DNA of 64,000 nucleotides from Pseudomonas sp. Irchel s3b2 (GTDB lineage: Bacteria > Pseudomonadota > Gammaproteobacteria > Pseudomonadales > Pseudomonadaceae). The position numbers and the translations under genes are program-made. The notes under the pieces are model-generated. The model did no database searches. It had not been told where the DNA came from and saw only the letters and a program-made list of their open reading frames with translations. The stretch is taken from NCBI RefSeq assembly GCF_900187445.1, contig NZ_FYEB01000010.1, positions 124,001-188,000 of the forward strand. The letters run 5' to 3'. Of this stretch, positions 35,001 through 50,625 are shown one piece after another (the stretch's first letter is position 1; every line of letters begins with the position of its first letter).

Positions 35001-36964
35001 ATGGTCAGATCCGCATTGGTGAGACCGGTCACAGCCTCGGAGAATGTGATCGTCACCAAGGACGTTTCGCCGATGCTCAGTGTGGTGTCAGCGACCACAA
35101 TGGTCGCGGTCGGCGGTGGCGAATACGCGGTGTTGAGTACACCTCCGTCGTTGTAGATGGTCGCGACGGAGGTCGGCGAGGTGCCGGTTGTACCTCCGCC
35201 CTGCGCGGTACCGCCTGCACCACTGGCCGCGGCATTACCGGCCAGGGCGGCGAAGTTGGCGGCCGTTATCAGCAGCGTGCCCTTGTTCCAGATCGCACCG
35301 ACGCCCCTGCCGCCCACGCCGCCATTGCTGGCATTGCTGCCCTGGCCACCACCGCCGCCGCCGCCACCACCGGCGCCAATGTTGTTGCTAATGGTCGACG
35401 TGCCGACGATGGTCATGGTGCCGCTGCTGGCGTTGTAGATCCCGCCCACCGCGCTTCCGCCGGCGCCACCCACCTTGTCCCAACCGGCCCCGCCGCCACC
35501 ACCGCCAATGGAAATCGTGCCATTGGTGGCCGTCGCACCGTTACCGCCGTTGCTGTAATAGGAAACGCCCTGCCCGCCAGCTCCGCCAGTGGTGGTACCG
35601 CCGCGACCGCCCATGTGGGTCGCGTCATAACCGCCGCCGTAACCACCGGCGCCGCCGCCGCCCGCACCACCACCCAACGTGCCGGTGCCCGGCCCTGCCG
35701 AACCGCCATGCCCGCCGCCCTGGCCGCCCAGACCGCCGCCTCCACCACCGCCACCACCGTAGAAAGCGCCCGTGACACCACCGCCGCCCCCGCCACCGGA
35801 AGCGCCGTTGGAGGTCACGGTAATGTTGTTCAGGGTCAGAATCCCTGCGTTGAAAATCCCCCCGGCCATCGCGCCCGTGGCGCCGTAACCACCGTTGCCG
35901 CCCGTGCCCGACACCAGCCCCCGGGTGATCACCAGACCATCGAGCGTCACGACACTGCCAGACGCCACTTCAACCACTCGGGTCCTGTACTGACCATCGA
36001 GAATCACGTCAGCGGCGCCGTCGTTGTTCAAGTCGCCATCAACGGTGATGTTCTTGTTGATCAGCAGTTCGGACGTCAGTTGCACCGTCATGCTGCTGTT
36101 AAAGGTAACGATATCGCCGTTCTGCGCCGATGCGATGGCGGCACGCAACGAGCCGACGCCCGTGTTGGCGTTGTTGGTGGCGGTCCAGGTGGCCAGGCCC
36201 CATTGATAGTCGCTCATGGCCGTGGTCGAGAGGACGTTGGCGCTTTCGATGTTGCCGGTGGCAATTTCCAGATCCCAGTCGCCACCGATCCCGGTGCGAT
36301 TGCTGGAAGCCGCCACATCGCGGCCGGTCAACTGAGCCAGCGAATCGATAAAACTCAAGCCACGCTCACCTTCGGCGGTGTAGCAGCCATAGATCATGAT
36401 GTCGCCGCCGACGTTCATGTCCTTGCCGATTTCCGCCAGCACCGCGCTGCGGGCCGCGACGTTGTCGGCGGACAAATAACTATCCCCCAGCCACAGATCG
36501 CCAGCATTACCATGGGCGATGATCTGTACCGAACTGATGCCCTGATGATTGTCCAGATAATCGGCGATCTGCTGCAGGCCATCTTTGCTGGCATCCAGCT
36601 GAACCACCTGAGTGCCGGGGGCAATGCCCTGGAGCAGACTGCCTGCATCCTTGACCCGCGAATCGACGAACACCACGCTCTGCCCCGGCACTGCAGCAGG
36701 TGCCGGTGTGGCATCGGCCTGACCATGGGTATCCTGGCTGGCGACTTGTTGATCGGCCGTCGGTGCCTTGACCGCCTCGGCAGTGGCATGGCTGTCAACC
36801 TGGGCAGTATCGGCAACCGTGGCGACCACCGCGCCGTCGAACAGCATGCGTGGCTCCAGGGACATGATCATTGGCGAGGCCAGTGCTCGTGCGCCTTCGG
36901 TAACCCGCGACTTGCCTTTGCTCCACCACATGCTGCTCACCCGGAGTCGAACTTTCTGACGCAT
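29081..36964 (-). CDS. Giant repeat surface protein: LEPR motif, DUF4347, Gly-rich, 18 Ig-like repeats
   Basis: About 2,627 residues. In order: a basic N-terminus without Sec signal, containing SLEPRMLFDGA (about 34-44; the LEPR-type motif of large exported proteins); a DUF4347 domain (about 97-250) with IIAHGNAGD and IMIYGCYTAEGERG; a beta-helix-like part (about 255-380); a segment very rich in Gly (to about 600); 18 tandem Ig-like (Big_12-type) repeats of 102 residues (about 617-2450); and a C-terminal tail rich in Gln/Leu. I see no RTX nonapeptides. It is probably an exported adhesin. The start is uncertain: ATG 36964 lacks a ribosome-binding site; ATG 36931 has a GGGTGAG nearby. A sulfotransferase lies upstream, tolC and cysC downstream. 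Confidence 0.9.
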   Translation of the reverse strand: MRQKVRLRVSSMWWSKGKSRVTEGARALASPMIMSLEPRMLFDGAVVATVADTAQVDSHATAEAVKAPTADQQVASQDTHGQADATPAPAAVPGQSVVFVDSRVKDAGSLLQGIAPGTQVVQLDASKDGLQQIADYLDNHQGISSVQIIAHGNAGDLWLGDSYLSADNVAARSAVLAEIGKDMNVGGDIMIYGCYTAEGERGLSFIDSLAQLTGRDVAASSNRTGIGGDWDLEIATGNIESANVLSTTAMSDYQWGLATWTATNNANTGVGSLRAAIASAQNGDIVTFNSSMTVQLTSELLINKNITVDGDLNNDGAADVILDGQYRTRVVEVASGSVVTLDGLVITRGLVSGTGGNGGYGATGAMAGGIFNAGILTLNNITVTSNGASGGGGGGGVTGAFYGGGGGGGGGLGGQGGGHGGSAGPGTGTLGGGAGGGGAGGYGGGYDATHMGGRGGTTTGGAGGQGVSYYSNGGNGATATNGTISIGGGGGGAGWDKVGGAGGSAVGGIYNASSGTMTIVGTSTISNNIGAGGGGGGGGGQGSNASNGGVGGRGVGAIWNKGTLLITAANFAALAGNAAASGAGGTAQGGGTTGTSPTSVATIYNDGGVLNTAYSPPPTATIVVADTTLSIGETSLVTITFSEAVTGLTNADLTIANGTLTAVSSSDGGITWTATFTPTASLSDTTNVITLDNTGVINGLGTAGVGTTNSNNYVVDTLRPTVGIVFTDTALKVGETSLVTFTFSEAVTGFTNADLTIANGTLTAVSSGDGGITWTATFTPTASITDTTNLITLDNTGVSDLAGNAGSGTTDSNNYAIDTVRPTATIVVTDTALRIGETSLVTITFSEAVSGFTNADLTIANGTLTSVSSSDGGITWTATFTPNASINDTTNLITLNNTGVSDLAGNAGSGTTDSNNYAIDTVRPTATIVVADTALRIGETSLVTITFSEAVSGFTNADLTITNGTLTAVSSSDGGITWTATFTPTASINDTTNLITLDNTGVSDLAGNAGSGTTDSNNYAIDTVRPTATIVVADTALRIGETSLVTITFSEAVSGFTNADLTITNGTLTAVSSSNGGITWTATFTPSASINDTTNLITLDNTGVADLGGNAGSGTTDSNNYAIDTLRPTATIVLADTTLTAGETSLVTITFSEAVTGFTNADLSIANGTLTSVSSSDGGITWTATFTPTAGIISATNVISLANTGVVDLAGNTGSGISSSGNYAIDTALPTATIVVADTALRIGETSLVTIAFNQAVTGFTNADLTIANGTLTSVSSSDGGITWTATFTPTASITDTTNLITLDNTGVQAAATGNVGSGTTDSNNYAIDTVRPTATIVIADTALRIGETSLVTITFSEAVSGFTNADLTITNGTLTAVSSSNGGITWTAIFTPSASINDTTNLITLDNTGVADLGGNAGSGTTDSNNYAIDTLRPTATIVLADTTLTAGETSLVTITFSEAVSGFTNADLSIANGTLSAVSSSDAGITWTATFTPTAGVNDASNIITLANTGVTDVAGNTGSGTTNSGNYIIDTVLPTATIVVADNALSVGETSLVTITFSEAVSGFSNADLTIANGTLSAVTSGDGGITWTATFTPTNATTDTSNLITLDNSGVQNGSGNAGSGTTDSNNYAIDTVRPTATIVVADAALAVGQTSVVTITFSEAVTGFTTADLTVSNGTLSNLSTSDNITYTATLTPTASVTDSSNLIALDNTGVIDGAGNTGAGTTDSNNYAIDSQRPTATIVLADTTLSAGETSLVTITFSEAVTGFDNSDLSIANGTLSAVSSSDGGITWTATFTPTAGVNDASNIITLANSGVIDVAGNTGSGITNSGNYTIDTVLPTAAIVVADNALRIGETSLVTITFSEAVSGFSNTDLTIANGTLSAVSSSDGGITWTATFTPTNAITDTSNVITLDNSGVQNGSGNAGSGTTDSNNYAIDTVRPTASIVFTDTALKADETSLVTITFSEAVSGFTNADLTIANGTLSAVSSSDGGITWTATFTPTASITDTTNLITLDNTGVNDLAGNAGSGTTDSNNYAIDSQLPTATIVLSDTTLKPGETALVTITFSEAVSGFDNSDLSVANGTLSAVSSNDGGLTWTGTFTPTIGVTDATNLIILNNTGVTDLAGNAGTGVTNSANYVVETQVPTATVVVADSTLKAGETSLVTITFSEAVSGFSNADLTVANGTLSNVSSSDGGVTWTATFTPTVSVTDTTNLISLDNSGVTNVSGNSGVGVTDSNNYAIDTVRPTATIVVADNKLGIGETTTVTITFSEAVSSFDLSDLSVANGVLSNLVSSDGGVTWTATLTPTASLNDATNLILLDTGNVFDAAGNAGASIAISNNYALDATRPTVTIVVANPILGIGQTTLVTFTFSEAVSDFDLSDLSVTNGELINLASSDGGKTWTGTFTPTANITDPSNFIALDTSNVTDLAGNIGASVAVSNNYTINTGPAFVVLPPVTVPAQPNVPLQPIIFTPPTGDLGSPLTFTPLFEQRVIGNGIRPLGDIFMSHGALTPSFIAQVFSGSDSGGDGSGHGFLGFGGGDGGVFGTSTLSSLFNQDTGSEVDSLNAFGNNSIRTGDASQGLRGVFGAPSLGQQLQQLKDTEQRQVESLAAALQQVGISEMQA
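29620..35130 (-). repeat. 18 tandem 306-bp coding repeats
   Basis: The repeat unit is 306 bp (one of 309 and one or two of 303 bp) and codes for an Ig-like domain with landmarks TLxxGETSLVTITFSEAV, ADLTIANGTL, GGITWTATFTP and NNYAIDT. Near-identical stretches lie about three units apart (32642 versus 33563; 31160 versus 32075), so the array grew partly by duplication of three-unit blocks. Confidence 0.95.
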
Positions 36965-36966
36965 CA

Positions 36967-36998
36967 ATGAAAACGCCGCGATCAACTGATCGCGGCGT
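36967..36998 (-). terminator. Terminator-like hairpin between sulfotransferase and giant gene
   Basis: ACGCCGCGATCA (36973-36984) pairs perfectly with TGATCGCGGCGT (36987-36998). On the minus strand it includes the last codons of the sulfotransferase and is followed by TTTTC. It ends just before the ATG at 36964. The T-run is short, so it may be a partial terminator or attenuator. Confidence 0.6.
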
Positions 36999-37827
36999 CC
37001 GCTTTCATACGAATGACATTGGCGGCGCTGGCTGAGCCATCGAGCCAAAAGGACAACTCGGCGTACTGCTTGAACAAGTCCGGCGGCAGGATCGTCCGCC
37101 TGGATTGCAATTGAACCTTGGCCTTCACCTTGTGCAGCCCCGAGAGGCCGAGGGCCTGATCGAATTCCGGTGCGTCGTAGGCCAAATGCTCGAAGTCATG
37201 TTCGAACCAGGGTTCGCCGATGAAGTCGTAGACCAGCCGCATCACCCGCTCCGGCGCCTGGCTCAACAGGTCGTAATCGATGATCAGCAACGAGTCGGCG
37301 TGTTCGCCGTAATAGGCTTCCTTGAGGGCGGCCCAGGAAAACCCAACCAGCCGATTGCGCTGAGCCAGGGTTTCGCAGCGGCTATAGACCGTGTTGCGCT
37401 CGACCGCATCGCCGAACAGCTTGGTGTTTTCGAAGGGGTTGGCACGGTACAGGCGCTCGATACTGTCCATGACCCAGGCGACATTGCGCACACAGGCAAT
37501 GATCTTGGCTTGAGGGAACAGATCGCTGATCGCCGGCAGGCGCGAACTCCACAGGCGGTTCGTGTCGAACACCACCGGCTTGTCGGCCTTGTCGGCGTAG
37601 AAAGAATCGAACAGGCCGCGCAACAGACGGCGACGCAGGTCGGTGTCGATCACCGCACCGAATTCGCTGCCGGCGCTGCATTGTTCCAGAACGCCGGAAA
37701 ATAGCGCACCTACAGGGCTGGTCATGCCGGCATGAAAGCGTGGATTCTGCAAAAGAATGGCAGAAAGCAGGGTCGAGCCTGAGCGTGGCAAGCCGGAGAT
37801 AAAGTGGAATTGTTGCAATCCATTCAC
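36982..37827 (-). CDS. PAPS-dependent sulfotransferase-like protein
   Basis: The 281-residue product starts with FHFISGLPRSGSTLL, the 5'-phosphosulfate-binding loop of sulfotransferases, and has a likely 3'-phosphate-binding segment in IIACVRNVAWVMDSIERLYR. It transfers sulfate from PAPS to a hydroxyl group of a protein, sugar or lipid. No signal peptide is visible, so it acts in the cytoplasm or at the inner face of the membrane. It sits just upstream of the giant surface protein; with cysC at the other end of the gene group this suggests sulfation of that protein or of a glycan on it. The acceptor is unknown. Confidence 0.85.
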   Translation of the reverse strand: MNGLQQFHFISGLPRSGSTLLSAILLQNPRFHAGMTSPVGALFSGVLEQCSAGSEFGAVIDTDLRRRLLRGLFDSFYADKADKPVVFDTNRLWSSRLPAISDLFPQAKIIACVRNVAWVMDSIERLYRANPFENTKLFGDAVERNTVYSRCETLAQRNRLVGFSWAALKEAYYGEHADSLLIIDYDLLSQAPERVMRLVYDFIGEPWFEHDFEHLAYDAPEFDQALGLSGLHKVKAKVQLQSRRTILPPDLFKQYAELSFWLDGSASAANVIRMKADAAIS

Positions 37828-37968
37828 CCGTCATCAGTCCTTTGTATGCGGAGCGTAGACCACGAACGGCCTTACGACGAGTGGTGTTTTGATATCAAAT
37901 CGGAGCTAAATCGACGGAAAAAGGTGATTTCATCAACGATCTCAAAGATGAATCGTTTAAGCCTTACT

Positions 37969-39231
37969 TCAGCACAGATAGACGCGCAGAGGCACCCTCA
38001 CATAATCGACCAAGACGCTGAGCTGATCGCCGGTAGCCACTGTGGCATTGTTTTTCAAGCCCACCAGCTCGACGCCGACAAACAGCATCAGCACGGCCAG
38101 CGCCAATACCTTGAAGTCCACGTACAAGCGATCGACTGCCAGCGCCACAAGCATCGGCAGACCCAAGGCATAAGCAGTCAAATAACGCTCGATGAACACC
38201 GGCGATATGAACGACAGCGCAAACACCAGCAACAACGGCAGAGCCGTGTAGATCAGCGCCAATGCACTGCCACGAAAAACACTGCGATCCCGCGCCAGCG
38301 CCACGCCCGCCAGGGCCAGCAGCGCCAGTGGCAGCGCAATAAAAAACAGTGTGGACAGGTCGCCGCCAGCGTCCTGAATCAGGAACATCCAGATCATCGA
38401 AGGCAACGAGCCAAGCGCGACGGGTGCGTCCCACCTTACATCGCCATTGGCCTTGAGCTGATCCATGTGCTGGACCAGATCGATCAGATTGGGCAGCCAT
38501 GGCAGGTACAACACCACAATGGCCATATTCGCCAGCCACCAGCCGGAGCGCTGAATGTGCCGCAATCGATAGCCTGGTTGCACACGGATCAATCCCAGAT
38601 ACAGCCAGTGGCACAACACGCACAGCACTGTGAAGTAATGGGTGTAGAACGCCGCACTCATCAGGAGGGTGTAAAGCACCAGATAGCGCGTGCGTTGCGG
38701 CCGTTTTATCCAGCACACCAGGGCGATCGTGGCACCGATCAGCCACAACCCCAGCAGCGAGTACATGCGCACTTCCTGGCTGTAATGCACCGCCGTGGGC
38801 AGCAGCGCCAGCAGAACCCCGGCCAGCAACGCGGCGCGACGGGTAGCGAGCAGGTCCACCAGCCAGATGCCGAGCCCTACGGTGGCAATCCCCGGTAATG
38901 CACTCAGGCTGCGAATCGAAAAAATGCCATCCCCGAACAGGCCGATCCAGCCGTGCAGCAGCATGAAATACAGCGGCGGATGCACATCATGGGCCGCGTG
39001 CTCCCAGATCCCGGCCAGGGAATACTGGCTCAGCAACAGACTGGCCCCTTCGTCGCCCCGAATCGCCGCCGCCGTCAGATCGTAAAAACGCACTAGAGCG
39101 GCCAATGCCAGGATCGAAAATAGCCAATGCTCCCGCGCCCATCGAAGCAAGCGACGGGCAGTAGCCCACGAGCCCGGCATCGCATGCGGGTCCTGGGGAT
39201 CGCCCAACGGTGTTTCTCTGCGCGCCTCCAT
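37969..39231 (-). CDS. GT39-type membrane glycosyltransferase
   Basis: ATG 39231 after GGGGAGG gives 420 residues with about 10-12 membrane helices. The first loop contains IRGDEGASLLLSQYS (acidic motif of GT-C enzymes of the ArnT/PMT type) and AAHDVHPPLYFMLLHGW. These enzymes use polyprenyl-phosphate sugars on the periplasmic side to modify proteins, lipids or glycans. It lies upstream of the sulfotransferase, separated by 141 AT-rich bp that may hold a promoter. Glycosylation of the giant surface protein is a reasonable guess; lipid modification is an alternative. Confidence 0.85.
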   Translation of the reverse strand: MEARRETPLGDPQDPHAMPGSWATARRLLRWAREHWLFSILALAALVRFYDLTAAAIRGDEGASLLLSQYSLAGIWEHAAHDVHPPLYFMLLHGWIGLFGDGIFSIRSLSALPGIATVGLGIWLVDLLATRRAALLAGVLLALLPTAVHYSQEVRMYSLLGLWLIGATIALVCWIKRPQRTRYLVLYTLLMSAAFYTHYFTVLCVLCHWLYLGLIRVQPGYRLRHIQRSGWWLANMAIVVLYLPWLPNLIDLVQHMDQLKANGDVRWDAPVALGSLPSMIWMFLIQDAGGDLSTLFFIALPLALLALAGVALARDRSVFRGSALALIYTALPLLLVFALSFISPVFIERYLTAYALGLPMLVALAVDRLYVDFKVLALAVLMLFVGVELVGLKNNATVATGDQLSVLVDYVRVPLRVYLC

Positions 39232-39477
39232 TACCTCCCCTTGCAACGGCCAACTGAAAACCGAAGCTCCCCAAGCACTGTAGGACAACCGCGAGCCCGC
39301 CGTCGATGCTGGCCCTGCGACGGACGACGTCCGGCAATCATTGGGATCAGCGTCTACGCTTTGGCGTGGCGTGACCCAGCCACGGAGAAGAAAGGAGTCG
39401 GCTGATCAGCGCGAACTGCCCGGATAACCGGGTCTGCGACGTGACGTATCAGACACTAACCTGAGGGATGAGGAACC

Positions 39478-40065
39478 ATGGAAGTATTCATCGGCACTAT
39501 CCAGCCTTTCGCCTTTAACTTCGCGCCTAACGGCTGGGCCCTATGCAACGGCCAGACGCTGAGCATCTCGCAATACAACACGGTTTTCGCACTGCTGGGA
39601 GTCAACTTCGGAGGCAATGGCACCACCAGTTTCATGCTGCCCAACCTGCAAGGTCGCATGCCGGTCGCCATGGGCAACGGCCTGGGCCTGACCCCGCGCG
39701 TCATCGGCGAAGTCTCCGGTACCGAAAATGTCACCGCGACCATCAATAACCTGCCCAACCACACCCACGCCTTGTCCGGACTCACGGCCACCACCACCCT
39801 GCAACTGGCCAGCCCGGCGAGTAACCCGGTCACCAACCCGACCGCGACCAACTCGTACATCGGCGCCTCCAGCGGCGGCCCTGGCTCGGCAAGTATTTAC
39901 TCCGATCAGCAAGGCGCCGCGGCCGTGCCGCTCAAGGGCGTAACCAGCACGGTGACGGGGGAAATCTCATCCGCCGGCAACGGCTTGCCCATGGCGGTGA
40001 TGAACCCGTTTCTGGTGCTCAACTTCAGCATCGCCCTGAACGGGCTGTTCCCTTCGCGTAACTGA
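39478..40065 (+). CDS. Tail-collar domain protein (microcystin-dependent protein/MdpB-like)
   Basis: The 195-residue protein starts FIGTIQPFAFNFAPNGWALCNGQ and has the phage tail-collar signature FGGNGTTSFMLPNLQGRMPVAMG, then NNLPNHTHALSG and a low-complexity Thr/Ser/Ala segment. Such proteins occur as phage tail parts and also as bacterial surface or secreted proteins outside phages. No other phage genes are near, so this is the non-phage type. It has its own GAGGAA ribosome-binding site, is divergent from the GT39 gene across 246 bp, and is followed by a DUF6916-like gene. No signal peptide is apparent. Confidence 0.87.
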   Translation: MEVFIGTIQPFAFNFAPNGWALCNGQTLSISQYNTVFALLGVNFGGNGTTSFMLPNLQGRMPVAMGNGLGLTPRVIGEVSGTENVTATINNLPNHTHALSGLTATTTLQLASPASNPVTNPTATNSYIGASSGGPGSASIYSDQQGAAAVPLKGVTSTVTGEISSAGNGLPMAVMNPFLVLNFSIALNGLFPSRN

Positions 40066-40122: not shown

Positions 40123-40434
40123 ATGCTGCAACAGGTTCAAAGCCAACACTTTCAGGCACTGTTGGGTAAGACCCGGACGCTGTGGCTGCCCGATGGCAGT
40201 GAACTGCCGATCCATATCGACACTCTTCAGGAAACGCCCCGGTCACAGATGCCAAACAGCGAGCGTATGCCGTTCAGCGTCGAGTTCAACAGCCTGCAAC
40301 CCACCGATTTTGTCGATGGATTGTGTGCGCTGGAGTTGCCGGAGCTGGGTCGGGTACAAGACATTTTCGTGTCGCGGGTGCCTGCGATGGGACGGGATCC
40401 ACAACAGGGGTACTTTTACATCGCGTTCAACTGA
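40123..40434 (+). CDS. DUF6916-like small protein
   Basis: The 103-residue product (QSQHFQALLGKTRTLWLPDG early, SVEFNSLQPTD in the middle, GYFYIAFN at the end) matches the small beta-rich family I know as DUF6916, which repeatedly accompanies tail-collar proteins of the Mdp type. It begins 57 bp after the collar gene with GGAG upstream and ends 19 bp inside the convergent GNAT gene. Function unknown; a chaperone or partner of the collar protein is a guess from context. Confidence 0.7.
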   Translation: MLQQVQSQHFQALLGKTRTLWLPDGSELPIHIDTLQETPRSQMPNSERMPFSVEFNSLQPTDFVDGLCALELPELGRVQDIFVSRVPAMGRDPQQGYFYIAFN

Positions 40435-40931
40435 GAACTTTGTGGATACCACACCAACCGTTCCGCCGCCGGGTTGCGCTCTTCAACCTGAAACCCCAGC
40501 GCCAGGTAATGCTGGCGAGCATGGGGATTATTGGCCCAGACCACCGTCGCCACCGGACAGCGGATTTGTTGCGCGGCTTTCTGCACGCCTTGCAGCACCG
40601 TGCGACCATATCCCTTGCCGCGGGCCTGTGGAATGAACGCCAGGTACAGCACGCGAATTTCATTGGGGCCGAAGTCGGTGGTCAGCGCGCCGATGGCCGT
40701 GTCGAGTTTCTCGATCACGTAATGCATGGCATCGGGGAAGTTCTCCCCCAGCCCTTGTTCCTGCACCTTGAACTGCTGGACAACCACCTGCTCAACCATC
40801 TCCTGCTCACCGTCGATCCATTGCAAATCCGGCCGTGCCGCCTGGTAAAGGCTGTGCAGAAAAGGCCCATCGCTGGTCCGCGAAGGCCTGACAACCAAGC
40901 CGTCCGCTGCCACTGAATCGATATTCGCCAT
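40416..40931 (-). CDS. GNAT-family N-acetyltransferase
   Basis: The 171-residue protein has the acetyl-CoA-binding signature LAFIPQARGKGYGRTVLQ (R/Q-x-x-G-x-G/A) and the later HARQHYLALGFQVEERN typical of GNAT enzymes. It lies 12 bp downstream of the M50 protease gene and is probably co-transcribed. It could acetylate a protein N-terminus or side chain of the secreted substrate, but the acceptor cannot be told. Its last bases overlap the convergent DUF6916-like gene. Confidence 0.85.
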   Translation of the reverse strand: MANIDSVAADGLVVRPSRTSDGPFLHSLYQAARPDLQWIDGEQEMVEQVVVQQFKVQEQGLGENFPDAMHYVIEKLDTAIGALTTDFGPNEIRVLYLAFIPQARGKGYGRTVLQGVQKAAQQIRCPVATVVWANNPHARQHYLALGFQVEERNPAAERLVWYPQSSQLNAM

Positions 40932-40943
40932 CGCTGTACTCCC

Positions 40944-43040
40944 TTAGAAACCGCTTTCCCTGACCCCCAAAGCCGCCAAGCGCCGCCAGGCAACGCCCAG
41001 CAACGACTCGCCACTGCCCTGCAACACCACAATGCCGCGCAACGGCTGCAGCGGTGTCGGCGTATTTTCGAGGATGCTCAACCGCGCGCCGTACTGCGCC
41101 TGCACCGGCTCGGCGCGCTGATGCTGATCGCGTCGCACGGCAATCGGCCCGTGGTGATCGGAGGTCAGCGCTTCCTGATCGACATAAGCCACGCCGTTGG
41201 TATCGATTTCGCTCAATTGCACGGCGATCGCCGGGTGCATCGGGTCATCGGCGATGAATCGTCCGCTGGCACCCGGAGCGACACGCCAGAGTTCGGCTTC
41301 GGCCAGATAACCGCGTAACCGCGCGCCGTCTTCGACCACCCGGGCCAAAGGATCTTTGGTCGAAAGCCAGCGACCGACCGTCAATTGCGGCAACAGATCG
41401 CGCACCTTGCCACCGTGGGGGGCGCGCAGCAGCAAACGTTCACGCTGGGCGGCCAATCCGCGATATTCGGCCACGGCTTCGGCCAGACGCTGTTCGACGA
41501 TTCCGGCGTCAGCCGCGGTTTCGCTGCGGCTGGCCTGACGACGCATCTGCAACTGCTGAATCTGGATCTCTCGACGGACGATGGCCTGGCGTGAGTCCAG
41601 ATCCGGCGACTCCAGCTCGATCAGTACCTCGCCCTGAGCAACGACCTGGCCGTCATGCACATTCACTGTTTTGACCCGAGCGGCCACCGGCGCGTGCAGG
41701 GCACTGGCGCGTCCGGCCTCAAGCATCGTCGGCAACTCCACCGCGCTGCGCCAAGGCAACGCCAACAGCAACAACAGCCCAAGCAACGCCAGGCTGCTGA
41801 GCAGTACCCGAGGCGCATGCGCCTGTTCGCGACGGGTCCACCATTGCCGCCACTCGCTCAGGATCGGCAGGAAGATGAACCACACCAGCTCCACCAGCAT
41901 CAGGAAAATCCCCAACACCTTGAAGAACAGGTGATAGACCGCCAGCGCAATCCCGAAAAACAATGCCGCGCGCCACAACCACGCGCCATACCCCCAGATC
42001 AGCAAACGCCGCTGCATCTTCGGCGACCACGGTTCCGGTGCCGGGGCTGCATAGCCGAACAAAAACTCGCGCAGCCGCCAGCGGCACAAGGCAAAGGCCC
42101 GCCCTTGAAGGTTCTCCACTTCCCAGAAATCACTGAGCAAGAAGTACCCATCGAAGCGCATGAAAGGATTGAGGTTGATCACCAGCGTGGTGATCCAGGT
42201 CGCACTGGCGAGCATGAACGCCGCCGTGCGTCCGGGGCCATCAGGCAGCAGTGACCAGGTGAGCAGCGCGATACACGCCAACACCAGTTCCGCCAACACG
42301 CCGCCCGCACCGATCAGCAACCGTGCACGGCGATCATTAACGCGCCAGGCGTCGCTGACGTCCGTGTAAAACATCGGCAGCAGCACCATGAACGCCACGC
42401 CCATGCTCTGCACCCGACAACCGGCACGCTTGGCCATGAAGGCATGGCCGAACTCGTGGCACAGCTTGGCGAAAAACAGCGCCACAGCAAACGCCAGCGC
42501 ACCGCCGAGGCTGAACAGGTGCGGAAAGGTCGCGATAAACCGCTGCCAGTCCCGCGAGACCAGAAACACCCCAAGCCCCAATGTCGCGGGCAATCCGTAG
42601 CGCAATGCGCGTGGGCCGAAACGCTCCAGCCACGGCCAGGCCCGATTGAGAAAGGCGTCCGGGCGCCACAGCGGAATCCGGAAAAACAGGTATTGATGCA
42701 GCAGGATTTGCCACAGACTCTGGCGCTGAGCCGCGGCTTTCAAGCTGTAACTGGCGCGCTGCGTTGGATCGAGGGCGCTGATCAGGTCGTGGCCGCGCAA
42801 AAACTCCAGCAATTGCTCAAGCGCCGCGCCATCCAGCGGCAGCCCCGGTTCGCGGTTGGCAGCACGCAGCACTTGCTCCGGATCACCCAGGGACCAATGG
42901 CGCAGCAGGCGCATCGCCGCCGCACCGAGTTTGAAATAACGCCCACGCACCGGGTCGGCCAGGGTCCAGCGCGGCGACCCGTCGAGGGCCGGGGCCGACG
43001 CCGACAATTGCAGGTCTGCCCGCAGGCTCGGCAGGCTCAT
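40944..43040 (-). CDS. M50 metalloprotease fused to HlyD-like adaptor
   Basis: The 698-residue inner-membrane protein has an N-terminal PqqD-like winged helix (about 25-90), a membrane M50 (site-2 protease) part with HEFGH at 195-199 and the second zinc motif NPFMRFDG at 291-298, and further helices. It ends in a periplasmic lipoyl/HlyD part (VKTVNVHDGQVVAQGEVLIELESPDLD and a helical hairpin). Both zinc motifs are intact. Its ATG follows the stop codon of the upstream HlyD gene with no gap. M50-HlyD fusions accompany peptide or protein export. The substrate may be the giant protein or a smaller peptide. Confidence 0.88.
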   Translation of the reverse strand: MSLPSLRADLQLSASAPALDGSPRWTLADPVRGRYFKLGAAAMRLLRHWSLGDPEQVLRAANREPGLPLDGAALEQLLEFLRGHDLISALDPTQRASYSLKAAAQRQSLWQILLHQYLFFRIPLWRPDAFLNRAWPWLERFGPRALRYGLPATLGLGVFLVSRDWQRFIATFPHLFSLGGALAFAVALFFAKLCHEFGHAFMAKRAGCRVQSMGVAFMVLLPMFYTDVSDAWRVNDRRARLLIGAGGVLAELVLACIALLTWSLLPDGPGRTAAFMLASATWITTLVINLNPFMRFDGYFLLSDFWEVENLQGRAFALCRWRLREFLFGYAAPAPEPWSPKMQRRLLIWGYGAWLWRAALFFGIALAVYHLFFKVLGIFLMLVELVWFIFLPILSEWRQWWTRREQAHAPRVLLSSLALLGLLLLLALPWRSAVELPTMLEAGRASALHAPVAARVKTVNVHDGQVVAQGEVLIELESPDLDSRQAIVRREIQIQQLQMRRQASRSETAADAGIVEQRLAEAVAEYRGLAAQRERLLLRAPHGGKVRDLLPQLTVGRWLSTKDPLARVVEDGARLRGYLAEAELWRVAPGASGRFIADDPMHPAIAVQLSEIDTNGVAYVDQEALTSDHHGPIAVRRDQHQRAEPVQAQYGARLSILENTPTPLQPLRGIVVLQGSGESLLGVAWRRLAALGVRESGF

Positions 43041-44360
43041 TTACAGGCCTACGCTCTGACGCAAACCGGCGAGTGGTCGACGCAACAGATACAACGCCAG
43101 CGGCGCACGGTCGCCGAAAATTTTCGCGGTGCCGCGCAAACCGATGCGTGGCGGTGCGGCGTCGAACGTTGCATCCAGGCGATAAGCCAGTTGCCCGGCA
43201 GCGGTGGGCTGCGCTTCGTAGGCCGAACGTTCGAGTTTGGCCAAGTGCCGCTGCAGCGGATCGCTGTCGAGAAACAGCGCGACCTGCGCCCCCGGTTCCA
43301 AGGCAATCGCATCGCCCACGGCCAATTCGATGCGCAACTCGGCCTGGTTCGGGTCGGCGATTTCCATCAGACGTTCGCCGGTCTGCACCGGTTTGCCGGT
43401 CCAGCGCTCGGCGTCGGCGAACACCGCGATGCCGTCCCGCTCGGCGCGTACCTCGCTGCGTTTGAGCAGTTCACGGGCGTAATCCCGTTCGGCGCGCTTC
43501 TGCTCCACTCGCGCCGCCAGCAGATCGATTTTCGAACTGGATTCGGCATCGGCGAAGGAGCGTTGGGAATTGGCCTTGAGTTCCGCTTCGGCAACGCCCA
43601 AGGCGCGCCCGGCCACATCGGCCTGAGCCTTGAGCGTGGTGCTTTCGAAGCGCAGCAGCAGGTCGCCGGTTTTTACCGTCTGATTAGGTTTGACCAGAAA
43701 CTCGGCGATCACCCCATCCAGCGGCGCCACCACCACCCGACCGCCCAACGGGACGACTTCGGCCGGGGCCAGCACCGATTGGCGCACCGGGATCAGCAAC
43801 CCGAGCAACAACACGGCAACCAGCGCCACCTGACGCTTGCGCGTCCAGCGCAGTCGCCAGGGTTTGCGCGGTTGCTGCGCGAGCCAGGCGTGGCTGTAGG
43901 TGTCGCCCAGCTGCGACAGCAGCACTTGTTCGGAAGGGTTCCACGGCACATCCCGCGCCAGCCACAGACCGCCGAACACCTCGCCCTGATGATCAATCAG
44001 CGGCAGCCAGAACACCTGAGCGGCTGACAGACTTTGCCAGTCGGCCAGAATCGATTCACTGAGCAGATCGGGCGTGATCACCCGCGCCTGTTTCAACACC
44101 TCAAGCTTGAACAGCTGCGCGACCGCTTGTTCGACAAACGCCACGAACGGCGCATTCGGTTCCACGGCACTGACACCGGTGACCGCCTGCACCTTGCCAG
44201 CGATCAACAACGCGGCATGGCGGAAACCGAACAGCGCCTGACCGTCATTGACCAGGCTGTAAGCCAGTTGCGAAGGCGTGCGCGCGGCGCGGGTCTGGCG
44301 TTCGAGGTCGAGAAACCTTGCGAACACCTGCTCGGCGCCGCCGGTCACCGGGGCGTTCAT
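43041..44360 (-). CDS. GAF-like domain fused to HlyD adaptor
   Basis: The 439-residue protein has a cytoplasmic N-terminal GAF-like part (about 1-165: SYSLVNDGQALFGFRHAALLI and VFWLPLIDHQGEVFGGLWLAR), one membrane helix (VALVAVLLLGLLIPV), then an HlyD-type lipoyl/hairpin region (GGRVVVAPLDGVIAEFLVKPNQTVKTGDLLL). A cytoplasmic sensor domain on an adaptor is unusual and suggests the export step responds to a ligand or to the cargo. It overlaps the upstream adaptor by 4 bp and abuts the M50 gene. Confidence 0.85.
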   Translation of the reverse strand: MNAPVTGGAEQVFARFLDLERQTRAARTPSQLAYSLVNDGQALFGFRHAALLIAGKVQAVTGVSAVEPNAPFVAFVEQAVAQLFKLEVLKQARVITPDLLSESILADWQSLSAAQVFWLPLIDHQGEVFGGLWLARDVPWNPSEQVLLSQLGDTYSHAWLAQQPRKPWRLRWTRKRQVALVAVLLLGLLIPVRQSVLAPAEVVPLGGRVVVAPLDGVIAEFLVKPNQTVKTGDLLLRFESTTLKAQADVAGRALGVAEAELKANSQRSFADAESSSKIDLLAARVEQKRAERDYARELLKRSEVRAERDGIAVFADAERWTGKPVQTGERLMEIADPNQAELRIELAVGDAIALEPGAQVALFLDSDPLQRHLAKLERSAYEAQPTAAGQLAYRLDATFDAAPPRIGLRGTAKIFGDRAPLALYLLRRPLAGLRQSVGL

Positions 44361-45139
44361 TTGAACTCCGCGAAATGCGCCGTTCCGCTCATGCCAGCCA
44401 ACAGACCGTTGGCGTTGGGCAGCGCCGCTACCAGCAGCAAAGTCTGGCTGCCTTCGTCGATCCGCGCACCGAGGCGTTTGACCGTCGCATCCAGCGGCTG
44501 ACCGGTTTCATCGGGGACAAAACTGAACGTCTGGCCGGGCTTGAGTTTGCCCATCCAGCGCGACGGCACCAAGAGGTGAATTTCCAGGGTGCGGTTATCG
44601 ACCACGTCCAGCAACGGCGCGCCGGCGGCAACGCTTTCGTAGCGCTTGACCTTGCGCTCGACGACCTGACCATCGAACGGCGCCACCACATTGCAGCGTT
44701 TGACCTGAACCTGATAGACCTGAGACTGCGCCTGAATCTCGCTGACCTTGGCCTCGGCCCGCGCCACTTCAAAGCGTCCGACCGAATTCAACGCTGCCAG
44801 TTGTTTGTTGTGCGCCAGCTCTTCACCAGCACCACGGCTGGCAGCCTGAGCCGCATTGAGCTGAGCCTGATAAGCCGAACAGTCAAACCGCGCCAGGGTG
44901 TCGCCCTTTTTGAACGACTCGCCCTCACTGAACGGCAACTCGACAATCCGCCCCGACAACTCGCTGGCCAGCACCGCCTGATCCCGGGCTCGCAGCACAC
45001 CACGGGCTTCACTGCTGGCCGACGCATTACCACCGACCGCACTGTTTTCCAGCAACGGATCGTCTGGCGCAGGTGTTTGCGCCTGTACTACGCACGTTAC
45101 AAAGGTCAATCCAATAACCAGAATACGAACACGCCGCAT
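44357..45139 (-). CDS. Periplasmic efflux adaptor (RND/MFP type)
   Basis: The 260-residue protein begins with a Sec signal peptide (ILVIGLTFVTCVVQAQ) and carries a compact adaptor fold: lipoyl half LASELSGRIVELPFSEGESFKKGD, a helical hairpin, CNVVAPFDGQVVERKV, and a beta-barrel. It lacks the long hairpin of AcrA and is short. It heads the three-gene chain with the GAF-HlyD and M50-HlyD genes. Three adaptors in succession and no ABC or RND pump is unusual. Confidence 0.87.
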   Translation of the reverse strand: MRRVRILVIGLTFVTCVVQAQTPAPDDPLLENSAVGGNASASSEARGVLRARDQAVLASELSGRIVELPFSEGESFKKGDTLARFDCSAYQAQLNAAQAASRGAGEELAHNKQLAALNSVGRFEVARAEAKVSEIQAQSQVYQVQVKRCNVVAPFDGQVVERKVKRYESVAAGAPLLDVVDNRTLEIHLLVPSRWMGKLKPGQTFSFVPDETGQPLDATVKRLGARIDEGSQTLLLVAALPNANGLLAGMSGTAHFAEFK

Positions 45140-45234: not shown

Positions 45235-46803
45235 TCAGAGCTGCGCCGTCTCTGCCACCGGATACACCGACTCCCATCCCCCACCCAACGCCTTGTACAA
45301 ACCAACCATCGCCAACGACACCCCGGTCGAGCTTTCAACCCACTGCTGCTGGGTCGCCAGCAATTCGCCTTGCACAGTGAGGACGTTGACGAAATCCACC
45401 ACCCCTTCGACGTACTGCTGTTGTGCGGTGCGCAGGGCGATCTGGTTCTGGCGCACGGCTTCGGCGAGGCTGTCGCGGCGCAGTTGGCTGGCGTTGTAGG
45501 CGGTGAGTTGATCATCGATTTCATGCCAGGCCCGCAGCACGGTTTGCTGGTAGGCCAGCGCCGCTTCCTGTTGCTGGGCTTCGCGCAGGTGCAACATGCC
45601 GCGCAGGCGACCGCCGTCGAACAGCGGCAGGCTGAACTGGGGGCCGATGCCGAATGAGCGCGAGCCCCAGGAACCGAAATCGCTCAATTGCATGGCTTGC
45701 GAACCGATGTTGCCCGACAGGGTGATCCGTGGATAAAAGTCGCCCTTGGCCACGCCGATGCTGGCGGTCGCGGCATGCAGACGGGCTTCGGCCTGACGGA
45801 TGTCGGGGCGGCGCTCGGCCAATTGCGACGGCAAGCCGATGGCGACCTGACGCGGAGTTTGCGGCACCGGGGCGTCTGTGGATAACTCGGCGGACAGCGC
45901 TTGCGGTGGTTCGCCCATCAACAGGCTCAGGGCGTTGATCAGTTGCGACTGACGCTGCTCCAGCGCCGGCAAACGTGACTCGATGGCCGCGACTTGCGCA
46001 GCGGCTTCGGCAACGTCCAGATCCGTCGCCACACCGTCGGCCAGGCGCAGTTGCGAGAGTTTCAAACTATGCCGGGCGACGTCGAGGTTCTGCTCGGTGA
46101 CGGCCCGCGTGCTTTGCACACCGCGCAGTTGAATGTAGTCCTGAGCGGTTTCGGCAAGCACCGACAGCAGCACGCCACGACGATCGTTTTCCGCCACTTC
46201 CAGCGTGGCATCGGCGGCTTCGGTTTCGCGGCGCACACGGCCCCAGAAATCCAGTTCCCAGGAGGCGGAAAAGCCTGCGTCCCACAGGTTGAACGCCGAG
46301 TCGCCGTTGTTGCCCGAAGGATCGTTCAGGCCTTCACCGCTGTTGCGTTTGCGCCCATAGCTGCCGCTGGCGGCGGTATTGGGATAGCGATTGGCGGTGA
46401 TCACCTGGCGCGCGGCGCGGCTTTGCTGCAAGCGGCTGCTGGCGAGTTTCAGGTCGAGGTTGTCGGTCAGGGCGCGTTGGGTCAGGGCTGAGAGTTTTGG
46501 GTCGTGAAATACTTCCCACCAGCGTTCGTCCATTTCGCTGGGAATGATCTGACTGGCGGCGGCTTTAGTTGGTTTGGACCATTCGGCCACTTGTTGTGGC
46601 TGAGGTTTCTGGAAGTCCGGGCCGACGGTGCAAGCACTCAATGAAAGCAGACTCAACACAAAAACCACTGAATGAATGCTGACCCTGTGGCGAGGGAGCT
46701 TGCTCCCGTTCGAGTGCGCAGCACTCGCAATTTTTGGGTCCGCTTCGCAGCCCAGCGGGAGCAAGCTCCCTCGCCACGGGGATGTGCGATTAACAACGTT
46801 CAT
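45235..46803 (-). CDS. NodT-family outer-membrane efflux lipoprotein with REP-disrupted start
   Basis: The protein carries the OEP repeats (DPKLSALTQRALTDNLDLKLASSRL; RRPDIRQAEARLHAATASIGVA) and a lipobox region VVFVLSLLSLSAC. The frame from ATG 46803, which overlaps the upstream adaptor stop as ATGA, is 522 residues, but residues about 6-40 are coded by a REP element that preserves the frame. The natural start was probably the ATGA. The product may have a 40-residue N-terminal extension before its signal; a GTG at 46668 could start internally instead. It is the outer-membrane part of the EmrAB-like pump upstream. Confidence 0.88.
   Translation of the reverse strand: MNVVNRTSPWRGSLLPLGCEADPKIASAAHSNGSKLPRHRVSIHSVVFVLSLLSLSACTVGPDFQKPQPQQVAEWSKPTKAAASQIIPSEMDERWWEVFHDPKLSALTQRALTDNLDLKLASSRLQQSRAARQVITANRYPNTAASGSYGRKRNSGEGLNDPSGNNGDSAFNLWDAGFSASWELDFWGRVRRETEAADATLEVAENDRRGVLLSVLAETAQDYIQLRGVQSTRAVTEQNLDVARHSLKLSQLRLADGVATDLDVAEAAAQVAAIESRLPALEQRQSQLINALSLLMGEPPQALSAELSTDAPVPQTPRQVAIGLPSQLAERRPDIRQAEARLHAATASIGVAKGDFYPRITLSGNIGSQAMQLSDFGSWGSRSFGIGPQFSLPLFDGGRLRGMLHLREAQQQEAALAYQQTVLRAWHEIDDQLTAYNASQLRRDSLAEAVRQNQIALRTAQQQYVEGVVDFVNVLTVQGELLATQQQWVESSTGVSLAMVGLYKALGGGWESVYPVAETAQL
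46687..46777. repeat. REP element inside the 5' end of an OMP gene
   Basis: GTGGCGAGGGAGCTTGCTCC and its inverse GGGAGCAAGCTCCCTCGCCAC flank a short loop. It matches the family at 165-258. It has no stop codon in the OMP reading frame. Confidence 0.9.
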
Positions 46804-47864
46804 CGTTGCGCAACCTCATGCTCGCTGGCGCTTGCCGTATCAATCCTCGCCTCCACCGACATCCCCACCCGCAACCGCTCGGCCAATGGCTGCCCCGCCT
46901 CGAGGATGATTTTCACCGGAATCCGTTGCACAACCTTGGTGAAATTGCCGGTGGCGTTGTCCGGTTTGACCGAGGCAAAGGTCACGCCGGTGGCCGGTGC
47001 GATACTCTCGACGCGACCGCGCAGGGCTTCGCCGCCGAGGCTGTCGACATGCACTTGCACGCTCTGCCCCGGCTGTACGTCTGTCAGTTGGGTTTCCTGA
47101 AAATTGGCGACCACATAGGCTCGCTCCAACGGCACCACGGCCAGAATTTTGCTGCCCGGTGTGACATAGGCGCCGACCCGCACCGCGCGCTCGCCGACCA
47201 TGCCGTCCTGGGGCGCAACGATGCGCGTATAGGACAGCTCATAGCTGGCCATTTCCAGCGCCGCTTGCGCTCGCTTCAGCCCACCTTCGGCCGCATCACG
47301 CTGGGCGGTCAGGATCTCTACCTGCTTGCGTTCCGCCGCCAGCACCGCCGTGGCATTGGCCAAGCGAGCGCAGGCCTGATCGATGCGCGTGCGTGCTTGC
47401 TGAGCATTCTGCACCGTGCCGGCGCCGACCCCGGCGAGATGGTTGTAGCGGTTCAGTTCATGCTCGGCGAAAGCCATTTCAGCCTTCGCCGAAACCACCG
47501 TGGCCTGGGCCTGAGCGATCACAGATGTCTGGCGCTCAAGGGTTGAACGAGCGTTCTGTAGCTGCGCCCTGGCCACCAGGGTTTCAGCGTTGGCAGCCTC
47601 AGCGGCAGCACGCAGATCGCGGTCATCGATCAATGCCAGTAGCTGCCCTGCCTTGACCTGCTGATTGTCTTCCACCAGCACGTCCTTGATGAATCCCGCC
47701 ACGCGCGGTGCCACCAGGGTGAAGTCCGCCGAGACGAAGGCATCGTTGGTGTTCTGCTGCGTACGCTTGCCGAACAAACCTGGCGCCAGCAGGTAAATCA
47801 ACACGCCGACCGCCATCACCGCGGCAATGCCGACAGCGACTTTTTGCTTTGATTGAGTCGTCAT
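46800..47864 (-). CDS. EmrA/HlyD-type adaptor of a multidrug pump
   Basis: ATG 47864 gives 354 residues with an N-terminal helix (VAVGIAAVMAVGVLIYLLAPGLF), NTNDAFVSADFTLVAPRVAGFI and VEDNQQVKAGQLLALIDDRD (lipoyl half), a long coiled-coil hairpin and APQDGMVGERAVRVGAYV. These are EmrA features. It connects the DHA2 pump encoded upstream with the NodT channel downstream. The ORF runs 37 codons further upstream into the pump gene; the ATG at 47864 is preferred because the signal-anchor follows it. Confidence 0.9.
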   Translation of the reverse strand: MTTQSKQKVAVGIAAVMAVGVLIYLLAPGLFGKRTQQNTNDAFVSADFTLVAPRVAGFIKDVLVEDNQQVKAGQLLALIDDRDLRAAAEAANAETLVARAQLQNARSTLERQTSVIAQAQATVVSAKAEMAFAEHELNRYNHLAGVGAGTVQNAQQARTRIDQACARLANATAVLAAERKQVEILTAQRDAAEGGLKRAQAALEMASYELSYTRIVAPQDGMVGERAVRVGAYVTPGSKILAVVPLERAYVVANFQETQLTDVQPGQSVQVHVDSLGGEALRGRVESIAPATGVTFASVKPDNATGNFTKVVQRIPVKIILEAGQPLAERLRVGMSVEARIDTASASEHEVAQR

Positions 47865-47890
47865 AAAAACCTTCTGTTTCAGTAAAGCGT

Positions 47891-49438
47891 TCAAGTTGGC
47901 GCGCGCGGTGGATAGATCCGCGTCGGCAGCCAGAAAATCAGCAGGATCAGCGTCACGGCGACACCGGCCATACACAGGTAAAGATCGGAGGAGGTCAGCA
48001 CCACGGCTTGTTGATGCAGTCGGTGAGCGAGACCAGCGCTAGTGCCGTCAACCAAGGGCGAATTACCAAGGTTGTCCACCAGCATGGTCGAGTGGAAATG
48101 CAGCCTTGCAGTGGTCAGCGCCTCGATCACACCCGTAGCGATCACTGCGGCCAAGCCTTTCACGGTATTGAACCAGGCCGAGGCGAACGGCCCTTCCATC
48201 GGAGTGATGCTGCCGGTGGAGAGCATCAACAGCGGCAGCACGGCCATGGGCTGGCCGAAAATCTGCAGCCATTGCAGGACATAGAAATCGTCGCGAATCC
48301 ACGCCGACGTCAGCTGCGAACCACCGAGGCAAGACAGCGCCAACATGCTCAGGCCGATCCCCAGCACCCAGCGGCAATCGACCCAGCGCAGGTTGCACAG
48401 CGCCGCCACCAACGGCAGCGCGATCAACTGAGGCAACGCCGCCAGCAGCATGATCGGCGCGGTCTGCACCGGGCGATAACCCTGGACCTGCGCCAGGTAA
48501 CTGGAGGGAATGAGGACCACCGCGAGCAACACCACCAGCACGCCGGCCAGGGTCAACAGCGCGAACGACAGATTGCGGATACCTAACATCTGCAACTTGA
48601 AGAACGGAATCGGTTGCGACCACTCATTGATCAGAAACAGCACCAGCAACAGCAGCCCGCCGCCGAGCAGTCCGCAAATCAGGCTCGACTCGAACCAGTC
48701 CAGCCGATTGCCCTGCAGAATGCCGATCACCAACATGCAGATCGCCGGAAACCCCAGCAGCAAGCCACGCCAGTTGAATGACTTGAAGCGCTCCAGGCGT
48801 AGTGGATCCTGGGGTAAACCGTAAGCCACCGCTGCCATGGCAATCAGGCACGGCACGACGATTTGCCAGAAGGTCCATTGCCAGCCGATGTACTCGGTCC
48901 ACAACCCGGCCAGCGGTGTACCGAGACCGGGGCCGAATGTCGCCGTCAGGGCATAACCGGCCAGGCCATAGAGTTTCACGTTGGCCGGCAGGAACCGCAG
49001 GGCAACGGTCATCAGCATCGGCGGCAGCGCGCCGCCGGCCAGACCTTGCAAGGTGCGCATGACCAGCAGGCTTTCGTAATTCGGGGCCAACGGGCACAAC
49101 ACACCCAACAGCGTGAACGCACTGATCGCGTACAGGGTGAAGCGCCGCAACGAAAACGTCACCGAACACCAAGGGGCAAACGCCATGGCGGCCACCGAGG
49201 TCGCGGTGTAACTGGCGACCAGCCAGGTGCCTTCGTCGTAACCGATGGCCAACGCGCCACGGATATCGGCCAGGGCGACCTTGGTCACCATCTCGTTCAG
49301 GCCCGACACCAGCACCGCCAGCAACACGCCCACCAGGCCGATGATGATTCGCGGGCCGAAGACCGGTGGCGTGATGGCGGTCGCTGGTTTGGCCGCAGCG
49401 AGAGGCGCCGCGACCGTGAGGGAAGTCATGTACTGCAA
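47891..49438 (-). CDS. EmrB/QacA-type (DHA2) MFS drug:H+ antiporter
   Basis: The 515-residue protein has about 14 membrane helices and DHA2 marks: ADIRGALAIGYDEGTWLVASYTA, the RTLQGLAGGALPPM segment after TM4, GPGLGTPLAGLWTEYIGWQWTF (motif C-like), and ASAWFNTVKGLAAVIATGVIEAL. It exports drugs or related compounds using the proton gradient. It is the first gene of the operon pump, adaptor, OMP. A LysR gene lies beyond a repeat downstream in coordinate terms and may regulate it. Confidence 0.9.
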   Translation of the reverse strand: MQYMTSLTVAAPLAAAKPATAITPPVFGPRIIIGLVGVLLAVLVSGLNEMVTKVALADIRGALAIGYDEGTWLVASYTATSVAAMAFAPWCSVTFSLRRFTLYAISAFTLLGVLCPLAPNYESLLVMRTLQGLAGGALPPMLMTVALRFLPANVKLYGLAGYALTATFGPGLGTPLAGLWTEYIGWQWTFWQIVVPCLIAMAAVAYGLPQDPLRLERFKSFNWRGLLLGFPAICMLVIGILQGNRLDWFESSLICGLLGGGLLLLVLFLINEWSQPIPFFKLQMLGIRNLSFALLTLAGVLVVLLAVVLIPSSYLAQVQGYRPVQTAPIMLLAALPQLIALPLVAALCNLRWVDCRWVLGIGLSMLALSCLGGSQLTSAWIRDDFYVLQWLQIFGQPMAVLPLLMLSTGSITPMEGPFASAWFNTVKGLAAVIATGVIEALTTARLHFHSTMLVDNLGNSPLVDGTSAGLAHRLHQQAVVLTSSDLYLCMAGVAVTLILLIFWLPTRIYPPRAPT

Positions 49439-50548: not shown

Positions 50549-50625
50549 GCTGAGCACTCGTGTCTGATCTTGATTGATTCAGACGCAATGCTAGCAAACA
50601 TCCTCCTGACTGATGTATTGGCAGG

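Follow-up and report, generated by a model that had tools for sequence, protein, structure and literature searches.

How can a chain of adaptor proteins serve export when no pump accompanies it? The question is raised by a stretch of 64,000 nucleotides ('the window') from the 6.2 Mb genome of Pseudomonas sp. Irchel s3b2 (assembly GCF_900187445.1, contig NZ_FYEB01000010.1, positions 124,001 to 188,000), in which three adaptor genes, here termed HlyD1 (44357-45139), GAF-HlyD (43041-44360) and M50-HlyD (40944-43040), form a tight operon on the minus strand. Comparison with relatives suggests that this trio, together with a TolC-type outer-membrane lipoprotein and a giant protein, would constitute a dedicated system for exporting proteins that carry the 'LEPR-XLL' tag, a reading to which a probability of roughly 0.56 is given. 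It is supported by a gene set that is kept together, by tags on the cargo proteins, by an intact M50 protease site, by the lack of any recurrent pump, and by a link to SecA in a sister clade.

A pump-less operon and its partner genes

All three trio proteins match HlyD-type families in Pfam and NCBIfam, and Pfam additionally gives M50 in the third. HlyD1 is a periplasmic adaptor of the RND_mfp/HlyD_3 type (TIGR01730, 133.6 bits, over the cut-off; HlyD_3, 1.4e-19). In the window's list of open reading frames (ORFs), its frame and that of GAF-HlyD overlap by 4 nucleotides, and M50-HlyD abuts GAF-HlyD. A first-pass annotation of the window had described an adaptor trio with such overlapping or abutting junctions and without an ABC, RND or MFS pump, and the frames, the junctions and the missing pump all hold. 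The interval that it gave to the adaptor chain (40416-45139) is right for the trio but not for positions 40416-40931, which encode a GNAT acetyltransferase and no adaptor. No ABC transporter lies between or beside the module genes in the window, and no RND or MFS partner pump recurs in the loci of relatives (the RND scan being a crude hydrophobicity pattern). The trio is a real, pump-less operon of adaptors.

Relatives were compared in 80 named loci (L numbers below; genomes carry G numbers), which are the best 80 of 591 confirmed matches ranked by likeness to the window M50-HlyD and which lean to the clade of the window; their flanks extend up to 10 kb, cutting many of the loci. The nearest named relatives, P. 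farris and Pseudomonas sp. GM18, have M50 proteins 97% identical to that of the window, while the 80 together range through the Pseudomonadota from SAR11 to Rhizobiaceae, and extend to Nitrospira and to sulphate reducers, among them Desulfobulbaceae. In 73 of the 80 loci, which is beyond chance, GAF-HlyD immediately precedes M50-HlyD on the same strand; in the other seven it was not the ORF picked beside M50-HlyD, an overlong M50-HlyD frame covering its place in L109, L112 and L115. HlyD1 was found in 62 of the 80 loci, and 43 have an ORF that resembles the first 300 residues of the giant protein in the window.

The arrangement of the complete set is clearest in L051 (G162), where HlyD1, GAF-HlyD, M50-HlyD, the giant DUF4347 protein and a TolC-type protein of the OEP family follow one another in that order, on one strand, in one operon. 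The window contains the same giant/OEP pair, at 29081-36931 and 27526-29040 respectively (both minus strand), separated from the trio by sulfotransferase, glycosyltransferase, collar, DUF6916 and GNAT genes. The OEP protein (2.5e-37) is a lipoprotein, the start of its gene having been set, by our own reading, at the ATG preceding an LAISGC lipobox (the longest ORF begins at 29223). A TolC-type duct had been placed next to the trio; the conserved duct is instead this OEP protein encoded behind the giant gene, and not the NodT protein upstream of the trio.

The first-pass annotation had also proposed asking whether the trio accompanies the DUF4347 protein across genomes, and it largely does. Among 119 Pseudomonas genomes, M50-HlyD and DUF4347 occur together in 56 and are both absent from 59, with M50-HlyD alone in three (G307, G333 and G354) and DUF4347 alone in a single genome, where the match is a frame of 296 residues. 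Among 274 genomes of the class, M50-HlyD is present in 39, DUF4347 in 31 and both in 22 (p 3e-15). Together with the L051 operon, the Pseudomonas counts lend support to the earlier idea that a protease-linked chain without a pump exports the giant protein.

Copy number and integrity vary in a few genomes. Two full-length M50-HlyD matches each were found in Pseudomonas sp. Irchel 3E13 (G276, L147) and Pectobacterium aroidearum (G281, L114), while Nitrospira defluvii (G282, L131) has one M50-HlyD of the window type and one distant. The system seems to be decaying in a Symbiopectobacterium (L120), where HlyD1 and M50-HlyD both fall into two ORFs and the giant gene appears to be broken.

Motifs at both ends of the cargo

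The giant protein carries a LEPR-XLL leader, a DUF4347 domain and 18 Big_12 stretches; its start was chosen at an ATG opening the sequence MWW, from comparison with relatives (the longest ORF begins at 37048). Its box, LEPRMLFDGA, is encoded at 36830-36859 (minus strand). Cargo leaders are basic and end in a box of the form LE[PSQ]R-x-x-FD[GA]A, the same tag as in the LEPR-XLL domain proteins of NF012209, a family for which no function was found in print and which is tied here to an export module. That profile matches eight of eight further cargo N-termini from both the window's clade and its SecA-linked sister (15.6-31.5 bits, five of the eight over the cut-off).

Among 55 chosen cargo N-termini of the SecA-less type, the box was present in 53: 50 by a search pattern that held some positions fixed by construction, and L107, L108 and L112 by eye. 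Ten of the 55 were manual additions whose box was known beforehand, and without these the count is 43 of 45. The two misses are L116, whose 5' end is cut by the locus, and L120, with its broken genes. When eight cut cargo genes were extended, the 5' end was reached in six, each of which has the box (L171, L172, L174, L175, L176 and L178); the genes of L173 and L177 remained cut.

The box tends to go with M50-HlyD. In the set of 274 genomes, it was found in 20 of 21 DUF4347 proteins from genomes with M50-HlyD versus one of seven from genomes without it (p 1.2e-4). This table holds one assessable DUF4347 protein per genome, with second copies left out, as were G193 (5' end open), G090 (a fragment) and G068 (a weak match); the status of G265 was taken from L081, and QERRILFSAD in G258 was accepted by eye as a variant of the box. 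G123 was scored as having M50-HlyD (a fragment at a contig edge), and scoring it as lacking the protein gives p = 4.8e-4. Four of the seven proteins from M50-HlyD-less genomes start, by reading, with an apparent Sec signal peptide, and no Sec-like hydrophobic stretch was seen in the boxed cargo N-termini. As the box is almost always present where the trio is, and as genomes without the trio mostly lack it and often show a Sec-like start, the box may be a substitute for a Sec signal in the cargo. In L171, which holds the second system of Pseudomonas sp. Irchel 3E13, the cargo (3099 residues) combines the box with beta-propeller-like domains and gave no match to DUF4347; the tag, and not the domain, is therefore the common feature of the cargo.

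A second motif is found at the other end, as LGQQL in the window protein (29168-29182, minus strand). The pattern [LFV]xxQ[LIVFM] occurs within the last 60 residues of 25 of 28 large ORFs located directly upstream of an OEP, HlyD1 or GAF-HlyD gene, versus 44 of 300 control ORFs, with a mean of 5.7 and a maximum of 11 after shuffling. Four of the 28 (L144, L151, L160 and L161) were named by hand and several are close kin, and in L147 and L161 the match falls elsewhere than the motif seen by eye.

Beside the cargo genes of L171 (13351-15045), L172 (12239-13858) and L176 (13506-15137), on the same strand, lies an additional ORF of about 540-565 residues. Its versions in Serratia (L172) and in the second Pectobacterium copy (L176) have similar ends and a hydrophobic N-terminal stretch.

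The protease, its front domain and the motor

M50-HlyD combines three parts: a PqqD-like front (residues ~11-83), an M50 site-2 protease (HEFGH at 195-199, and D297) and an HlyD adaptor (~430-680). The protease site is complete, with H195, H199 and D297 as zinc ligands and E196 as the catalytic residue; all four are invariant in 22 of 22 and in 54 of 54 aligned proteins, and Peptidase_M50 matches the window protein over its cut-off (33.8 bits), so that the annotation of an M50 protease with both zinc motifs stands. In an AlphaFold2 model (predicted local distance difference test, pLDDT, 87.8), residues 11-83 form three strands followed by three helices, the M50 membrane helices come next, and then the adaptor. 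The beta-beta-beta-alpha-alpha-alpha order is that of the PqqD/RRE fold (RRE: recognition element of ribosomally synthesized and post-translationally modified peptides, or RiPPs). The PqqD-like front proposed earlier is favoured by this order and by sub-threshold Pfam PqqD matches at the corresponding place in five of nine sister-clade proteins (best 21.9 bits, cut-off 23.4); a Pfam match in the window's own family is the part that is missing. A fold search with the whole model lists adaptor folds and lipoyl-type domains only (best Z 14.5), and informs the adaptor part rather than the front or the M50 core. For those two parts, the closest likeness is to the M50 maturation proteases of daptides and epipeptides (NF041824, NF058609): NF041824 matches residues 32-391 of the window protein, covering front and core, with an E-value of 3.2e-44 (151.6 bits, cut-off 300). 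Unlike these proteases, M50-HlyD has an adaptor fused behind the core, and its cargo is a giant protein.

GAF-HlyD consists of a GAF domain (residues 7-165), one hydrophobic segment and an HlyD adaptor, as judged by profiles and a model (pLDDT 89.8). Pfam GAF has no match in the window protein itself, and matches 8 of 45 family members (best 2.4e-6); in the model, residues 7-165 resemble phytochrome GAF domains at Z ~15, and the GAF-like domain that had been annotated is borne out by both. The closest fold to its adaptor part is MacA (Z 16.2). The adaptor fold of M50-HlyD and GAF-HlyD is thus shared with MacAB-TolC, EmrAB-TolC and MexAB-OprM, whereas the trio has no MacB, EmrB or MexB partner.

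From these parts, a route for the cargo may be proposed. The LEPR leader would be bound by the PqqD-like domain of M50-HlyD, much as RiPP recognition domains bind leaders; the cargo would pass the inner membrane at the M50 domain or next to it, and the active site of that domain would clip the leader; the HlyD parts of all three proteins would form a periplasmic ring that feeds the TolC-type duct; and the GAF domain might gate the chain in response to a cytoplasmic signal.

What would drive such a chain is suggested by more distant relatives, where the gene that follows M50-HlyD encodes a SecA paralogue of about 650 residues (4 of 10 proteins tested; 17 of 40 loci of the class). In 14 of 14 cases these paralogues have domains for binding nucleotide and preprotein, with no wing-scaffold match. 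Since Pfam SecA_DEAD proved too unspecific for counting them over the 274 genomes, a separate profile (A1) was used, which isolated 17 paralogues (791-950 bits) in 16 genomes from other SecA matches (at most 608 bits). M50-HlyD is present in all 16 (p 1e-15), and 16 of the 17 paralogues adjoin it, the exception (G081) being on another contig. In the sister clade, the motor is presumably this SecA paralogue. Beside a long-branch M50-HlyD in G060 lies a shortened and diverged SecA-like protein (L086, 7099-8814; 568 bits), which is possibly a degenerate or third version.

A module of this kind has been described before. Kamneva, Poudel and Ward (2015; PMC4452313) reported a SecA-linked module with M50, GAF and HlyD proteins and no ABC transporter, proposed that SecA_DEAD is its ATPase and that M50 might form a membrane pore, and had already noted the lost wing-scaffold. 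Methylobacterium extorquens AM1 is one carrier of that operon. Like the window, that module has GAF-HlyD, M50-HlyD, a further HlyD protein and, in some cases, an OEP protein; unlike the window clade, which has no SecA paralogue, it includes a secondary SecA_DEAD protein. In the main text of that paper, no cargo for the module was seen, and LEPR, DUF4347, PqqD and Pseudomonas do not occur. The literature search gave no other description of the system. What appears to be new, relative to that main text, is the SecA-less clade, the LEPR-XLL cargo with its N- and C-terminal motifs, the frequent OEP partner and the PqqD-like front.

None of the 80 named loci gave a SecA-like gene, and the genome of the window gave no match in the paralogue range of profile A1. 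A tree of M50-HlyD (a quick tree with a midpoint root, three long branches and 16 rows in no group) has a supported branch that splits 17 SecA-linked rows from 26 SecA-less rows, the latter being named loci and the window. Because the tree separates a SecA-less clade, and the window genome has a single SecA match, the window clade appears to represent the same machine without a dedicated motor. The earlier remark that the energy source is not evident holds, then, for the window clade, but not for the sister clade, which has a SecA paralogue beside M50-HlyD. For the SecA-less clade, the likeliest motor is housekeeping SecA, perhaps with SecYEG, as a SecA is retained in the sister clade and the tags of both clades belong to one family; this suggestion is a tentative one.

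Alternatives, neighbouring genes and implications

A number of points weigh against the export reading, as do the ABC genes and the Vibrio protein considered with the second alternative below. Secretion, cleavage and binding are all deduced from sequence comparison and models. The LEPR box of the window protein scores 15.1 bits, under the NCBIfam cut-off of 17. One genome with the system (G077) has a DUF4347 protein with a Sec-like start, and in another with a boxed protein (G245), the M50-HlyD profile matches only in the range of HlyD proteins. The C-terminal motif was defined after the sequences had been viewed, and 3 of the 28 ORFs lack it. Pfam PqqD matches none of 54 proteins of the window's own M50-HlyD family, the window protein included, and in the sister clade the similarity stays under the cut-off. 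An OEP gene was found in only 46 of the 80 named loci, and the only SecA_PP_bind match in the window genome lies in a frame of 940 residues that is taken to be the housekeeping SecA. M50-HlyD occurs without DUF4347 in 17 of 39 genomes of the class and in 3 of 59 Pseudomonas genomes; a trio lacking the giant protein had been named in advance as a finding that would count against the link, but at least three of the 17 (G112, G229 and G224) encode a different, boxed giant protein next to the trio.

The strongest rival, although an improbable one, is a role in retention and release: the giant protein would leave by another export route, and the trio and OEP would act later, when the GAF domain would perceive a signal and the M50 protease would cut the leader and so free the adhesin, as LapD and LapG act on LapA. 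The system does have an N-terminal module, a protease and a sensory domain, and in one locus the gene row includes a PAS-GGDEF-EAL protein (L071, 8021-11146), with the HlyD/M50-HlyD genes on one side of it and the giant gene on the other (a hint of cyclic di-GMP control in that genome). However, the boxed cargo N-termini show no Sec-like hydrophobic stretch, the SecA-linked sister clade points to translocation, and the adaptors and OEP protein are transport parts.

Alternatively, an ABC exporter encoded elsewhere (LapB- or PrtD-like) might drive the chain as in type I secretion (HlyB-HlyD-TolC; LapB-LapC-LapE), with which the system shares HlyD adaptors, a TolC-type duct and very long, repetitive, adhesin-like cargo. 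The genome of the window has one LssB-type ABC (938.8 bits) and two of the PrtD type (780.8 and 736.8 bits), and among 11 SecA-less genomes tested, 4 gave an LssB-like match at 525 bits or higher (as a yardstick, an HlyB-type ABC scores 535 bits with the LssB profile). In addition, one paper describes a Vibrio LEPR-XLL protein with C-terminal RTX domains, which would suit type I secretion (PMC10868602). On the other hand, the remaining 7 of the 11 genomes (G162, G153, G194, G119, G235, G224 and G112) gave no PrtD-type match at 1e-80 and none above 352 bits with the LssB profile, the HlyB-type profile TIGR01846 not having been searched; because of these, an unlinked type I ABC is unlikely as a general motor, though less easily dismissed for the window's own strain, given its three ABCs and the Vibrio record, and we regard this explanation as the less probable of the two so far discussed. 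The module also differs from type I secretion in lacking an ABC, in having two adaptors with extra domains and in its N-terminal LEPR leader. As for a C-terminal export signal of the type I kind, RTX nonapeptides (GGxGxD) number 0-3 per protein in the 16 cargo proteins counted, yet a common C-terminal motif is present.

An ABC gene linked to the trio in relatives had likewise been named as a potential objection. Type I ABC genes do occur in 2 of the 80 named loci, but each has its own HlyD and neither recurs: an LssB-type gene ~6.9 kb upstream in L103, and an HlyB-type gene ~2.1 kb downstream, on the opposite strand, in L150. ORFs with ABC motifs are present in 16 of the 80, of which 14 are shorter than 400 residues and at least 5 kb away. 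The ABC-motif ORF of 620 residues directly behind M50-HlyD in L059 and L061 was rejected as an exporter, being the soluble ABC-F protein Uup.

That the trio is a signalling module, in which GAF input and intramembrane proteolysis would control expression of the giant gene rather than export of its product, is very improbable. Site-2 proteases frequently act in signalling, which speaks for the idea, but it leaves no place for three HlyD domains and a partner OEP, and no recurring regulator gene was seen in the locus maps, in which unmatched ORFs were left unidentified. Least credible of all is that the MFS pump encoded at 47891-49438, part of a complete MFS/EmrA/NodT tripartite set (45235-49438, minus strand) that adjoins the trio upstream on the same strand, would be the inner-membrane motor, as this pump has its own adaptor and duct and was rejected as a system part on counts of 6 (EmrB) and 8 (NodT) among 28 Pseudomonadaceae/Enterobacterales loci versus 28 (HlyD1) and 27 (giant protein). 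Beside that set, a LysR-like regulator was recognized by eye (49628-50557), and a second NodT-like and EmrA-like pair is located at 19035-21367 (minus strand).

Other neighbours appear to be accessory. In the same 28 loci, the GNAT gene (40416-40931, minus strand, 3' of the trio) was found in 21, that of the DUF6916 protein (40123-40434, plus strand) in 17, and that of the phage-tail-collar domain protein (39478-40065, plus strand) in 24. The giant or the collar protein had been put forward as cargo; the giant protein is the better supported, and the collar gene accompanies the trio in those 24 loci. Collar and DUF6916 genes also adjoin the trio in Chromobacterium piscinae (L163), and in L106-L109, L112 and L114 the collar gene runs in the same direction as M50-HlyD and the giant gene and lies between the two. 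In the window, the giant gene is preceded by genes for a sulfotransferase and a PMT-like glycosyltransferase (36982-39288, minus strand; present in 13 and 6 of the 28 loci, respectively), which might modify the giant protein.

A broader view of the proposed export system can be formulated, although it is a good deal more doubtful than the system itself. It would be a general pathway with an intramembrane protease, fitted with an RRE-like domain that reads leaders, instead of the ABC transporter; LEPR-XLL would serve as an address tag and the M50 membrane domain as the channel. One clade would be driven by a truncated SecA, while the widespread SecA-less clade, with no motor of its own, would pass cargo several thousand residues long through a TolC duct. 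The comparison joins two orphans: a tag borne by bacterial proteins of very large size, and a secretion module that had been predicted but lacked a known cargo. If the export reading is correct, soil, plant-associated and environmental bacteria would export many of their giant surface proteins by a pathway missing from the standard lists of secretion systems, and a tripartite TolC conduit could be fed by a protease-adaptor rather than by a pump. In Pseudomonas, the proposed route would have an organism in which it is easily tested.

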